DNA of 64,000 bases from Haloferax sp. Atlit-12N (GTDB lineage Archaea > Halobacteriota > Halobacteria > Halobacteriales > Haloferacaceae), in the NCBI RefSeq assembly GCF_003383095.1, contig NZ_PSYW01000001.1:682001-746000 (forward strand), written 5' to 3'. Every line of letters begins with the position of its first letter. Positions within the stretch are counted from its first letter, which is position 1. Positions 5,035 through 9,829 of this stretch are shown piece after piece. The translations under genes were made by a program, and so were the position numbers. Under the pieces are notes generated by a model, which searched no databases, was not told where the DNA came from, and was given only the letters and a program-made list of their open reading frames with translations.

Positions 5035-5718
5035 TCAGAGCACGAGCGACTGCACCGCGTCCCAGATGAAGACGACACCGAACCCGCCGAGAACGACGGC
5101 GCTGACGGCGGCGACGACGGGCGCGAAGGAGTCGACGCGTTGTTCGGCCGCGACGAGCGCCGCGGGGAAGCCGGTTACCCAGACCGCGATGCCGCCGAAG
5201 AAGCCGAGGATGAGCGCCGGACTGCCCGTCTCGACGATGAGCAGGTTCGACAGCGACGCGCCGAGATAGGGCGTGTGGGCGAGCACGTCGACGGTCCCGG
5301 TTTCGAGCAGGCCGACGCCGATAGTGAGCCAGAACAGAATCTGATAGGGGTTCGTCAGCGCGAGCACGAACGCCTTCGTGAAGCCGGCGCTGTCCTCGTC
5401 GGGGGCGGCGGCCTCGCGGAACGTGGTGTCCATCTCCTGTGCCGCGCCGTAGGCGAAATAGAGCATGAGGACGCCCCCGGCACCGACCATGACGGCCTGC
5501 GCCGTCGGGAACTGCTCGACGAACGCGACGAGACCGAGCGCCGCGAGGACGAAAAACAGCGCGTCGGCGCTCATCGCGCCGAGGCCGGCGCGAGCGCCCG
5601 CGGTCCACCCGCGGACGACGCTCTCCTCGGCGATGACGGCGTTCATCGGACCGGGCGGTGCGGCGAGCGCCAGCCCGAACACCAACCCGGCACCCAGGGA
5701 CGGAAGGAGGGTAGACAT
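5035..5718 (-). CDS. LysE/RhtB family exporter
   Basis: 227 aa, about six membrane helices. The N-terminal family signature APPGPMNAVIAEESV (about residues 20-34) and the mid-protein ALTNPYQILFWL match LysE/RhtB amino-acid or small-molecule exporters. The exported substrate cannot be predicted from sequence. A TATA-like CATTTTTCAC on the minus strand (about 5743-5752) sits about 30 nt before the ATG, so it probably has its own promoter rather than relying on the gdt1-like gene upstream. Confidence 0.85.
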   Translation of the reverse strand: MSTLLPSLGAGLVFGLALAAPPGPMNAVIAEESVVRGWTAGARAGLGAMSADALFFVLAALGLVAFVEQFPTAQAVMVGAGGVLMLYFAYGAAQEMDTTFREAAAPDEDSAGFTKAFVLALTNPYQILFWLTIGVGLLETGTVDVLAHTPYLGASLSNLLIVETGSPALILGFFGGIAVWVTGFPAALVAAEQRVDSFAPVVAAVSAVVLGGFGVVFIWDAVQSLVL

Positions 5719-5808: not shown

Positions 5809-6510
5809 TCAGACCAGCGCGAGGACCGCGTCGCTGACGGTGCCGACGAGCGTCTCCCAGATGGAGAAGCCGGTCCCGATGGCGAGCAGGGTGTCGAAGG
5901 CGAAGAAGCCGAACAGGGCGGCCGCGCCGAGGTACGCCTTGCGCGTGTCGACCCGGCCCGAGAAGCGGTGGAAGAAGTACGCGTTGGCGATGCTCACGGG
6001 GATGATGGCGAGCATCTCGCCCACCCAGATGGCCGAGGTCGCGCCGTACTGCACGGCCAGCCCGATGGTGACGAACTGGGTCTTGTCGCCGAACTCGCCC
6101 ACGGCCATCATGGCGAATATGGGCAGGAAACCGCCGAAGCCCTGCGTCGATAGCTCGCGGCCGAACACCGTCAGCGTGTCGTCGAACGCGGAGACGCCGC
6201 CGTCGGTGGTCGCGGCCCCGCTCTCCGCGGACGCGTCGGGCGCGGAGCGATAGAGCAACACCGCGAACGTGGCGAACAGGACGGCGGTGATGGCGTCGAG
6301 CGCGGCCGGCGGGAGCGCGCTCTTGAGCGCCTGCCCGAGCATGATTTCGAGGGCCGTCCAGAGTGCGAACGCCGACCCCGCGGCCGCGACGACGACCTTC
6401 GGGTCGAAGCGAGTCGAGAGGCCGGCGATGATGAACTGGACCTTCTCGCCCGGCAGGACCGCAAGTTGGGAGACGAGGGCGATGACGAGAATCTCCCACC
6501 AGCCGGTCAC
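5809..6510 (-). CDS. Gdt1/UPF0016 (TMEM165-like) cation exporter
   Basis: 233 aa, two homologous halves each with about three membrane helices, separated by an acidic linker (about residues 90-125). UPF0016 proteins export Mn2+ or Ca2+ through paired ExGDK(T/S) motifs. The second motif is intact here (GEFGDKTQF), while the first is degenerate (LPGEKVQF, about residues 19-26, lacking the usual leading Glu and the Asp). The start overlaps the sirR stop by 4 nt (ATGA), so the two are almost certainly co-transcribed, pointing to manganese efflux controlled by SirR. The ion is inferred. Confidence 0.8.
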   Translation of the reverse strand: MTGWWEILVIALVSQLAVLPGEKVQFIIAGLSTRFDPKVVVAAAGSAFALWTALEIMLGQALKSALPPAALDAITAVLFATFAVLLYRSAPDASAESGAATTDGGVSAFDDTLTVFGRELSTQGFGGFLPIFAMMAVGEFGDKTQFVTIGLAVQYGATSAIWVGEMLAIIPVSIANAYFFHRFSGRVDTRKAYLGAAALFGFFAFDTLLAIGTGFSIWETLVGTVSDAVLALV

Positions 6511-7202
6511 GCCGGCGACACCTCCTCGCTACTCGGCTCGTCGGGCGGGCGGACGCGAATCGTTCGGGCCACGGACTCCGGGAGGCTCTGCTCGCGACCG
6601 TCGTCGCCGACGCGCACGGTTACCATCCCGAAGGGGGCGATGTCGGTCACTTCGATGGTCGTCCCGGGCGTGACGCCGGCCTCAGAGAGGTACTCTAACT
6701 CCGCGGGGTCGCGGTCGCTGACGCGGGCGACCACGAGGCGGTCGCCGACCTCGCACTCGGAAAGCGCCGACAGGCCCGAGGAGTCCGGCGGCGTGAGGTC
6801 GGCGCTCGGGATGGGGTCGCCGTGGGGGTCGACCTCGGGTTCGCCGAGGGCGGCCGCGACCCGCTTTTCGAACTCCTCGCTGATGTGGTGCTCGAGCGCG
6901 TCGGCCTCGTCGTGGACCTCGCTCCACGAGTAGTCGAGGTGCTCCGTGAGATACGCCTCCAAGAGGCGGTGATGTCGGAGGACTTCGAGCGCGACGGTCT
7001 CGCCTTCCGTGGTCAGTTCGACGCCTTTGTACTTCTCGCGGTCGACCAGCCCGCGGTCTTCGAGCTTGCCGACCATGCTCGTCACGGTCGGCGGCGTCTT
7101 CCCGAGGTACTCCGCGATGTCGGAGGTCGAAACCGGCGGTCCCTGCTCCATCTGGAGCGTGTAGATAGCCTTCAGATAGTCCTCCATCACGTCGCTCAAC
7201 AT
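6507..7202 (-). CDS. sirR: DtxR/MntR-family metal-dependent transcriptional regulator SirR
   Basis: 231 aa. An N-terminal winged helix (about 1-65, SDIAEYLGKTPPTVTSMVGK) is followed by the DtxR dimerisation and metal-binding domain (65-140, with HHRLLEAYL and the Glu/His pattern DEADALEHHIS) and a C-terminal FeoA/SH3-like domain (about 145-220, CEVGDRLVVARVSD). Family members bind DNA when loaded with Fe2+ or Mn2+. The palindrome TTAGATGCGTCTAA lies 9 nt upstream of its ATG, indicating autoregulation. It is the first gene of an operon with the Gdt1-like exporter. Confidence 0.92.
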   Translation of the reverse strand: MLSDVMEDYLKAIYTLQMEQGPPVSTSDIAEYLGKTPPTVTSMVGKLEDRGLVDREKYKGVELTTEGETVALEVLRHHRLLEAYLTEHLDYSWSEVHDEADALEHHISEEFEKRVAAALGEPEVDPHGDPIPSADLTPPDSSGLSALSECEVGDRLVVARVSDRDPAELEYLSEAGVTPGTTIEVTDIAPFGMVTVRVGDDGREQSLPESVARTIRVRPPDEPSSEEVSPA

Positions 7203-7210
7203 ACCACGGA

Positions 7211-7224
7211 TTAGATGCGTCTAA
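7211..7224. promoter_or_regulatory. Predicted SirR operator
   Basis: TTAGATGCGTCTAA is an inverted repeat of TTAGA around a 4-nt centre. It lies 9 nt upstream of the sirR start codon and abuts the TATA-like minus-strand CTTTTACTTT (about 7223-7232). A DtxR-family repressor bound there would block TBP/TFB or the start site. Confidence 0.7.
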
Positions 7225-7287
7225 AGTAAAAGTCTGATGGAGATAACGAGCGAGTTCGAACGGGGCCCAGCCGGCCGAATCGACCGC

Positions 7288-8457
7288 TTAGACGCCCTGT
7301 CCCATCAGATGACTGCGGAGGATGTCGGCGTTCTTCGTCCCGGACTCGGTGTTGACGACGACGACCGTGTCGCCCTCGTCGAACTCGTCTGCGAGTTCCC
7401 ACGCGCCGGCGAGCGCGACGCCGCCCGCGGGGCCGACTTCGACGCCCGCGGTCTGGGCGGCGGTGACGGCGGATTCGAGCGCGTCGTCGTCGCTGACGGC
7501 GACAGCCGCGCCGCCGGACTCGCGGACGGCGCGGAGCGCGAGCGACCCGCCCGCGGGGTCCGGAATCTCCAGTTCGCCGACGATGGTGTCCGGCTGGTTC
7601 CACGCCTCGTGGGCGTCGCTGTCGGCCTCCCATGCGGTGGTGACCGGCGAACAGCCGACCGGCTGCGCGGCAACGAGTTTGGGCACCGACTCGACCAGTC
7701 CGAGTTCGACGAGGTCGGAAAAGCCCTTGTAGACGCCGTAGGCGAGTTCGCCGGTCGAGACGGGGACGACGACCCAGTCGGGGACCGACCAGTCGAGGCG
7801 CTCTGCGACCTCGTAGGCGATGGTCTTCGCGCCGTCGTGGCGGTAGGGGTTGTCGAACTCCTGCAGGGAGTACCAGTCGCTCTTGAGCTGTTCGTGGAGC
7901 GCGGAGAGGGCGTCAGGGTAGCGCCCGCCGACGACCTTCATCTGGCCGCCGTGGACGTTCACCATGGCCTTGTTCGGGAACGGCGTCCGCGAGGGGACGA
8001 AGCCGTAGGACCGTGCGTCCACGAGGCCCGCGTAGGAGGCCGCGGACTGCGCGCCGTTGCCGGGCGAGGCGTGCGCGACGACCTCGGCGTCGGCCTCGCG
8101 CGCGGCGGTGACGGCGAGCGAGAAGCCGCGGTCGAGGAACGTCCCGGTCGGGTTGCGGCCCTCGTCCTTGATGAGGAGCGACCCGACGCCGGCCTCCTCG
8201 CCGAGCGCGTCGGCCGCGACGAGGGGCGTCGCGCCCTCGTTGGCCGTCACCGGCTCCGCGAATGGGAGCAGTTCGCGGTAGCGCCACATCGTGTCGAAGG
8301 GGCGCTCGGCGAGCGTCTCGGCGTCCCACTCGACCGCGTCGAGGTCGTAGGTGGGGTCAAGCGGCGCGTCGGCGTCGCTCACGCCGGTTGCGTCCGCGTC
8401 GTACTCGTCGCCGGTCTCCGTGCACACCAGCCCGGAGAAGGTGTCGGACATCTGCAT
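7288..8457 (-). CDS. Threonine synthase-like protein lacking the PLP-binding lysine
   Basis: 389 aa, fold-type II PLP-enzyme family, threonine synthase branch. Family features are kept: zinc-finger-like N-terminus (CTETGDEY), KDEGRNPTG before the lysine site, a phosphate-cup-like SPGNGAQSAASYAG and STGELAYGVYKG. The residue that should be the Schiff-base lysine (normally NPTGSFKDRG) is Leu108 in NPTGTFLDRG; I checked the codon as CTC at 8136-8134. Without this lysine, normal threonine synthase chemistry is not expected. The frame is otherwise intact and family length, so it is probably a functional paralogue with another role rather than a decayed gene. Confidence 0.85.
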   Translation of the reverse strand: MQMSDTFSGLVCTETGDEYDADATGVSDADAPLDPTYDLDAVEWDAETLAERPFDTMWRYRELLPFAEPVTANEGATPLVAADALGEEAGVGSLLIKDEGRNPTGTFLDRGFSLAVTAAREADAEVVAHASPGNGAQSAASYAGLVDARSYGFVPSRTPFPNKAMVNVHGGQMKVVGGRYPDALSALHEQLKSDWYSLQEFDNPYRHDGAKTIAYEVAERLDWSVPDWVVVPVSTGELAYGVYKGFSDLVELGLVESVPKLVAAQPVGCSPVTTAWEADSDAHEAWNQPDTIVGELEIPDPAGGSLALRAVRESGGAAVAVSDDDALESAVTAAQTAGVEVGPAGGVALAGAWELADEFDEGDTVVVVNTESGTKNADILRSHLMGQGV

Positions 8458-8551: not shown

Positions 8552-9829
8552 ATGGACGATAGCCACATCGCGGTCGTCGGCGCGGGCCTCGCGGGCCTCG
8601 TCGCCGCGCGACACCTCGCCGCCGACGGGGCCGACGTGACCGTCGTGGAGCGGCGCGACGACGTCGGCGGGCGGGTCCGGACCCGAACGAAAGACGGCTT
8701 CACGCTCGACCGCGGGTTTCAGGTCCTCTTCACCGACTACCCCGCGGTCCGGCGGGAACTCGACCTCGACGCCCTCGACCTCCGGCGGTTCACGCCCGGC
8801 GCGACCATCTGCCGGCCAAGCAGACGCGCGGTGCTCTCTGACCCCCTCCGCGACATCGGGAGTCTGTTCGAGTCCGTCCGCAACCCCGAGGTGACGACGA
8901 GCGACAAGCTTCGGACGCTGGCGCTCAGACAGGACGTGAGCAGCCGCGACGAGGAGGGAATCTTCGCCTCGGCGGACCGAAGCATCCGGTCGTACCTCCG
9001 CGACTGGGGCTTCTCCGAGGACTACATCGAGCACTTCGTCGCGCCCTTCTACGGCGGCATCACGCTCGACCGCTCGCTCTCCTCGTCGAAGCGGGTGTTC
9101 GAGTACACGTTCAAGATGCTCTCGACGGGGAGCACCGCAGTCCCCGCGGCGGGGATGCAAGCGGTTCCCGAGCAACTCGCCGACGCCGCCCGCGACGAGG
9201 GTGCGACCGTCCGCCTCGGCGAGCGCGTCGAGTCGGTCCAGTCCGACGGCGACGGGGCGGTCGTCACCACGGGCCGCGAGTCAATCGAAGCCGACGCGGT
9301 CGTTGTCGCCACAGACCCCAAGGAGGCGCGCCGCCTGACCGGCGTCGGGTCGATTCCGACCGAGGCACACGGCTGTGTCACCCAGTACTACACGCTTCCG
9401 AGCGGGAGCGGCCTCGACGCGGGCAAGCGCATCATGCTCAACGCGCCGAGCCCCGACCCCAACACAGTCGTCCCGCTTTCGACCGTCGCGCCGGAGTACG
9501 CCCCGCAGGGAACGGAACTCCTGAACGCGACGTTCCTCGGCGCGACCGCGCAGGACGAGTCCGAGGAGGAACTGTTCGAGAAGACCCGCCGGACGCTCGA
9601 AGCGTGGTACCCCGAGCGCTACTTCGACGACCTCGAACTGCTCCACACCGACTACATCTCCTTCGCGCAGTTCGCCCAGCCACCGGGGGTCCACGAGTCG
9701 CTCCCGGACGCCCGCGACGCTCCCGGTCGCGCGTACCTCGCCGGCGACTACACCACGTGGTCGTCGATTCAGGGCGCGATGCGGAGCGGGAAGGATGCCG
9801 CCGACGCCGTCCGCGACGACCTCTCGTAA
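8552..9829 (+). CDS. FAD-dependent amine oxidase/phytoene desaturase-like oxidoreductase
   Basis: 425 aa. It begins with a perfect dinucleotide-binding motif (VVGAGLAGLVAARHLA) followed by VVERRDDVGGRVRT, typical of the amine oxidase, protoporphyrinogen oxidase and carotenoid desaturase superfamily. The C-terminal FAD contact is YLAGDYTTWSSIQGAMRSGK. The middle substrate domain does not identify the substrate. The ATG at 8552 puts the Rossmann motif at residue 7, as usual; the upstream in-frame start at 8525 adds unsupported residues. Confidence 0.85.
   Translation: MDDSHIAVVGAGLAGLVAARHLAADGADVTVVERRDDVGGRVRTRTKDGFTLDRGFQVLFTDYPAVRRELDLDALDLRRFTPGATICRPSRRAVLSDPLRDIGSLFESVRNPEVTTSDKLRTLALRQDVSSRDEEGIFASADRSIRSYLRDWGFSEDYIEHFVAPFYGGITLDRSLSSSKRVFEYTFKMLSTGSTAVPAAGMQAVPEQLADAARDEGATVRLGERVESVQSDGDGAVVTTGRESIEADAVVVATDPKEARRLTGVGSIPTEAHGCVTQYYTLPSGSGLDAGKRIMLNAPSPDPNTVVPLSTVAPEYAPQGTELLNATFLGATAQDESEEELFEKTRRTLEAWYPERYFDDLELLHTDYISFAQFAQPPGVHESLPDARDAPGRAYLAGDYTTWSSIQGAMRSGKDAADAVRDDLS

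Follow-up and report, generated by a model that had tools for sequence, protein, structure and literature searches.

The plant TSB-like protein, a pseudoenzyme paralogue which activates TSA (PMC12727527), is one of the closest described systems to the gene analysed here, together with SPTLC1 and AZIN1/2, which are without the lysine (PMC11016064), and Rv3778c of Mycobacterium tuberculosis, which also lacks it (PMC12910592). The orthologous group to which our gene belongs, designated T3a, would share with the plant protein the standing of a non-catalytic, selection-retained paralogue of a fold-type-II PLP enzyme. TSB-like differs in that other key residues are mutated and in that it acts by activating TSA, whereas in T3a the loss recurs inside one orthologous group. 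SPTLC1, AZIN1/2 and Rv3778c are, as is T3a, PLP-enzyme homologues devoid of the catalytic lysine, but their functions are not related to threonine synthase. These three systems also belong to fold types other than that of T3a.

A threonine-synthase-like protein and the canonical enzyme

The window, that is the whole 64 000-nucleotide stretch of Haloferax sp. Atlit-12N DNA that was analysed, carries on its minus strand (7288..8457) an ORF for a threonine-synthase-like protein of 389 residues (PALP, fold type II) which lacks the PLP lysine. Its match to Pfam PALP (PF00291) reached 223.6 bits against a gathering score of 35, placing it within the superfamily, and an AlphaFold model of the entire chain (pLDDT 96.5) gave plant threonine synthase 2c2b as the top PDB fold in Foldseek (TM 0.90, E 6e-28). 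The position of the PLP lysine, which is Lys in 94 family members and another residue in 100, is occupied by Leu108, encoded by CTC (8134..8136, minus strand) in the motif KDEGRNPTGTFLDRG (KDEGRNPTGTF-L-DRG); the Schiff-base lysine of NPTGSFKDRG, expected of a threonine synthase, is thus missing, and its absence is conserved. ORF, residue and codon (8136-8134) were all as the original prediction had described them. Its contention that a Schiff base with PLP is impossible at position 108 also held, leucine being present there and no conserved substitute lysine being found among the Lys-less members. The adjoining KDEGRNPTG (residues 97-105; 8143..8169, minus strand) is common to Lys-bearing and Lys-less members, with K97, N102, P103 and T104 conserved in 97%, 97%, 99% and 100% of the latter, respectively.

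The best family match of the protein, over residues 5-382, was the 'threonine synthase' equivalog NF006050 (PRK08197). Lys-bearing T3a members score above its cut-off of 303 bits (387 and 371), but the window protein, lacking both the lysine and the phosphate loop, falls below it at 296.7 bits. Canonical ThrC (TIGR00260; PDB 2zsj, 2d1f, 1uim, 6nmx and plant 2c2b) is likewise of fold type II, and its structures align with the window protein at about 24-32% identity (structural alignment) and TM 0.76-0.90. In contrast to canonical ThrC, however, the window protein is without the PLP lysine, has another phosphate loop (STGEL in place of a Gly/Asn-rich GNAGN or GGGVG), scores 146.1 bits against the TIGR00260 cut-off of 167.1, and exists beside a separate, universal ThrC.

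That canonical ThrC was found in 116/116 genomes, with SFKDRG in the copies read and a TIGR00260 score above the cut-off (290 vs 167 bits). Since it is present in every genome, T3a is not the main threonine synthase of the cell. Disruption of thrC3 (HVO_2969) by a transposon makes Haloferax volcanii auxotrophic for Gly/Ser/Thr (PMC4300041). HVO_2969 shares superfamily and genus with the window protein and lies at a different locus; from map distance we infer that it is the canonical ThrC, and the neighbouring HVO_0817 would make the window gene the counterpart of HVO_0818. If HVO_2969 is indeed canonical ThrC, none of the other ThrC-like genes stands in for it, and given these correspondences the auxotrophy indicates that ThrC is not replaced by the Lys-less protein. 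Neither HVO_0818 nor any threonine synthase without the lysine came up in the literature searched, and no biochemical, expression or phenotype data on the T3a protein were found.

Regulation of ThrC by T3a is nevertheless possible. T3a could be a non-catalytic subunit or allosteric regulator of canonical threonine synthase, acting as SPTLC1 does in serine palmitoyltransferase or as plant TSB-like does on TSA; this would be one particular version of the explanation that we prefer (below). The presence of canonical ThrC in all 116 genomes examined, the precedents of partner-activating pseudoenzyme paralogues (PMC12727527) and of SPTLC1 and AZIN without the lysine (PMC11016064), and the retention of family-specific residues in either Lys state all speak for it. 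However, thrC is not nearby, and co-occurrence is uninformative where ThrC is universal; we regard this particular version as unlikely.

A third ThrC-like gene, bearing the lysine and lacking the KxEGxNPTG motif, was also observed (G000, C1:1030055-1031155). This type is absent from 14/116 genomes, all of which have only Lys-less T3a, so that absence affects 14/54 genomes with only Lys-less T3a and 0/63 in which a Lys-bearing copy exists (Fisher p=7e-6, uncorrected for phylogeny, the independent pairs being too few). Because it is missing from these 14 genomes, the paralogue was excluded as an obligate partner of Lys-less T3a, which also counts against a regulatory reading with a ThrC-like partner of this type.

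Spread and polarity of the lysine loss

A first comparison drew on 79 relatives from named genomes, and the family was then represented by 194 distinct sequences, nine second copies included, with 116 genomes of the order also searched. The lysine is absent from 13/13 Haloferax genomes compared, 12 having Leu and one His; in the independently sequenced genomes the codon is again CTC, or CAC (His) in H. marinum. Across the 194 T3a sequences the column holds Lys in 94 and 13 different residues in the other 100 (Leu 36, Thr 19, Ala 16, Arg 7, Val 6, Tyr 5, Gly 4, Asp 2, and His, Ile, Phe, Ser and Gln once each). A lysine codon misread in sequencing or assembly, which the original prediction had named as a possible refutation, is ruled out by the 13 Haloferax genomes and the 100 Lys-less family members, and its probability is practically nil.

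T3a is nearly universal in the order, only one of the 116 genomes (G041) being without a copy. One Halorubrum genome (G095) has its Lys-less gene divided between two frames (C1:549339-550555), either by a frameshift or by an assembly error. Given this split gene and the one absence, T3a may be dispensable somewhere.

L241, the nearest relative found outside haloarchaea, has the lysine together with YPTGGGTGLIGMWKAF, and canonical ThrCs all have the lysine. Lys is therefore the ancestral state. The Gly-rich phosphate loop is likewise ancestral in T3a, L241 sharing the loop of Lys-bearing members. The residue essential to a catalytic ancestor has thus been lost, and lost repeatedly; the catalytic nature of the Lys-bearing ancestor is deduced from its family.

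Lys-bearing and Lys-less members are interleaved inside families and genera. One Halobacterium sequence has Arg, some Halococcus have Thr, and Natrinema has Thr, Ala or Arg plus one Lys, while one haloarchaeal family has Ala in two of its three genera. The Natrinema exception is Natrinema salsiterrestre (6001-7188 of its locus, L029), in which GTSKDRG occurs inside an otherwise Thr/Ala/Arg genus; its lysine was either retained or regained. On gene trees from which the trait columns had been excluded, parsimony required a minimum of 5 (41 rows) to 7 (194 rows) changes at the Lys column, the exact number of losses being uncertain because support is weak at many deep forks and some of the Lys-less branches are long. 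Forcing the Lys-less rows into one clade cost 98 units of lnL (AU p=5e-5), which rejects a single loss, and the test is conservative because long-branch attraction would tend to group the Lys-less rows. The question of whether K-to-L marks one conserved clade, as the original prediction had suggested examining, was thus answered in the negative: a single K-to-L clade is ruled out by the residue spread and the AU test, and the loss is repeated and family-wide, to Leu, Thr, Ala, Arg, Val, Tyr, Gly, Asp and others.

The former PLP pocket and selection on the gene

The view that the remaining PLP-pocket motifs of the window protein are intact proved wrong. It had counted STGELAYGVYKG as intact, but the 94 Lys-bearing members have the phosphate loop PTGGGVGLVGMHKA and the Asn loop SAGNAGQ, and the counterpart of the phosphate loop in canonical ThrC is PVGNAGNTSALYKAF. 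SPGNGAQSA of the window protein keeps the Asn and is otherwise unlike SAGNAGQ of the Lys-bearing orthologues. From Lys-bearing to Lys-less members, conservation falls from 99% to 1% at both G235 and M242, from 98% to 1% at K210, from 99% to 7% at A132, from 99% to 20% at S304 and from 99% to 17% at F107, with N134 going from 100% to 76% and T370 from 100% to 70%. Lys-less members keep the substrate-side residues R206, K211 and E216; Arg206 in NPYR (7840..7842, minus strand), 98% conserved among them in the alignment, is presumably the substrate-phosphate Arg of threonine synthases. Five phylogenetically independent pairs show the pocket residues changing for the most part with the lysine, but five are too few for significance.

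The 44 Lys-less sequences of Haloferacaceae (mean identity 61%) have E237, E295, G303 and G304 in 44/44 cases each, and nine columns fixed in Lys-bearing orthologues are in them largely or wholly fixed to another residue. Glu237 lies in STGE (residues 234-237; 7747..7758, minus strand), formerly the PLP-phosphate loop and GGGV in the Lys type. Glu295 (7573..7575, minus strand) replaces Gly, and Gly303-Gly304 (7546..7551, minus strand) replace Ala-Ser. New fixed residues in the pocket of Haloferacaceae are remodelling rather than decay, and an invariant Glu237 in the former phosphate loop argues against PLP binding.

The conserved pocket with its new Glu residues, and the retention of R206, K211 and E216, could also be taken to mean that the protein performs other chemistry, either holding PLP without a Schiff base or using the remodelled pocket for a reaction that needs no PLP. 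Dehydratases of aminotransferase fold in which His takes the place of Lys are a precedent. However, the residues found at the Lys position (Leu, Thr, Ala, Gly, Val, Tyr, among others) have no functional side chain in common, an invariant Glu where the phosphate loop used to be would be unfavourable to PLP, and 24% and 30% of Lys-less members have lost N134 and T370, respectively, so that we hold other chemistry to be improbable.

That the gene is not simply decaying, as had been argued from its intact frame, was borne out by the predicted fold and by dN/dS. In 13 Haloferax T3a genes dN/dS (Nei-Gojobori) was 0.12, with canonical ThrC of Haloferax at 0.085; other Lys-less groups gave 0.10 to 0.24 and Lys-bearing groups 0.09 to 0.15. 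The Haloferax value and the conserved columns show that the Lys-less gene is under purifying selection, 48 columns being at least 97% conserved across 100 Lys-less proteins with identity down to 34%. The highest values among Lys-less groups were those of Halorubrum (0.24) and Halobellus/Halogeometricum (0.23), in which constraint is looser than in Lys-type groups. These raised values, the longer Lys-less branches, the many different residues at the Lys position, and the one split gene and one absence would fit relaxed constraint, with a redundant PLP enzyme drifting to loss. Against such drift stand the dN/dS of Haloferax, frames of full length in nearly all genomes, the new invariant residues in the old pocket loops (44/44), the 48 conserved columns and the retained gene order, and we give it a very low probability.

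Ten residues, N167, G171, R179, P259, P289, G294, E297, S382, M385 and G388, are common to Lys-bearing and Lys-less orthologues and missing in a second Lys-bearing copy from Halorubrum and two related genera. Among them, Asn167 (7957..7959, minus strand) is found in both types of orthologue and not in the second Halorubrum copy, Arg179 (7921..7923, minus strand) is retained in 185/185 orthologues whether Lys or Lys-less, Gly294 and Glu297 (7567..7578, minus strand) are both invariant in 185/185 and missing from the second copy, and C-terminal SHLMGQG (Ser382, Met385, Gly388; 7294..7314, minus strand) is kept in orthologues of either Lys state. This set suggests, from conservation, that the orthologous locus has a role independent of the lysine. 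Its contrast with the PLP set was not significant (Fisher p=0.27), and a clean split of the PLP residues from the orthologue residues was accordingly rejected and left as suggestive only.

The second Lys-bearing copy (L138-L146) was observed elsewhere in the genome, alongside the Lys-less copy. In a large quick tree it falls within the Lys-type orthologues and in a careful tree at the base, and it may have arisen by horizontal transfer or be an old paralogue.

Gene neighbourhood and possible role

Gene order is kept across Lys-bearing and Lys-less lineages: a divergent FAD oxidoreductase, T3a and, in many, sirR, GDT1 and a LysE exporter. In the window these are a divergent FAD amine-oxidase/phytoene-desaturase-like gene of HVO_0817 type (8552..9829, plus strand; Pfam PF01593; PMC4300041) and, all on the minus strand, sirR (6507..7202), the downstream neighbour, which by Pfam encodes a DtxR-family metal-dependent repressor with a FeoA domain, a gene for a GDT1 divalent cation/proton antiporter (5809..6510; PF01169; cluster 13) and one for a translocator of the LysE amino-acid exporter family (5035..5718; PF01810). 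The T3a neighbours differ in Natrialbaceae. That the gene lies next to sirR was confirmed, sirR adjoining it in several Lys-bearing and Lys-less lineages, and canonical thrC is elsewhere on the same contig (C1:1520229-1521485). LysE lies near T3a at 11/31 Lys-bearing and 16/46 Lys-less loci sampled.

The sirR and GDT1 genes overlap by 4 bases (5809-7202) and are likely a metal-homeostasis (manganese) pair. Before sirR lies the palindrome TTTAGACGCATCTAAT (7210..7225, minus strand), a putative SirR operator, shared with 12/12 other Haloferax loci and with related genera; in Haloferax, the T3a-sirR gap of roughly 85-130 bp has the conserved palindrome TTTAGACRCRTCTAAT immediately before sirR. 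It is probably an operator of the SirR/DtxR family, which suggests autoregulation of sirR. With such a probable operator, sirR may have its own promoter and need not be co-transcribed with T3a. A link to the homeostasis of amino acids or metals is suggested by the conserved neighbours, namely the LysE-type exporter and, in some lineages, sirR and GDT1.

T3a, in which loss of the lysine recurs under purifying selection, with the predicted fold intact, the context conserved and the pocket remodelled, is in our view probably a recurrently evolved, selected fold-type-II PLP pseudoenzyme which binds a ligand or partner and performs no covalent PLP chemistry. Its ancestor would have been a PLP-dependent, threonine-synthase-like enzyme of fold type II, separate from canonical ThrC and already having a binding or interaction role, so that catalysis could become dispensable several times. 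The PLP lysine was lost in place in several haloarchaeal lineages independently of one another, and the phosphate-binding loop changed alongside, as did residues near it, while the predicted fold and family-specific residues were retained; in Haloferacaceae the emptied pocket was rebuilt around E237, E295, G303 and G304. The present protein would have no covalent PLP chemistry, probably hold no PLP, and bind a small ligand or a protein partner, which would make it a sensor or allosteric partner and not a catalyst.

A more particular proposal, which we put forward as rather unlikely, is that a PLP enzyme with a prior second, non-catalytic role repeatedly became a dedicated ligand sensor, its PLP pocket turned into a new acidic one (E237/E295) sensing an amino acid or cation and acting on amino-acid export or metal homeostasis, a role that would match the LysE, SirR and GDT1 neighbours. 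If this were true, the coexisting Lys-bearing and Lys-less copies of Halorubrum and its relatives would represent a division of the two roles.

The loss in T3a is real and repeated. PLP-fold pseudoenzymes as a kind are already known, and the lysine-less relatives of PLP enzymes known so far are mostly isolated cases; the comparative series offered here is unusually good. It consists of one orthologous gene with several lysine losses within one archaeal order. Orthologues with and without the lysine occupy the same locus, in some cases within one genus (Halobacterium, Halococcus, Natrinema), and Halorubrum has both forms in a single genome. Of the sampled haloarchaeal T3a members called 'threonine synthase', about half cannot be PLP-dependent threonine synthases. 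T3a is thus a natural replicate experiment on the roles of PLP enzymes besides catalysis and on the origin of pseudoenzymes, and as Haloferax volcanii is genetically tractable, the question of what T3a does is directly testable.
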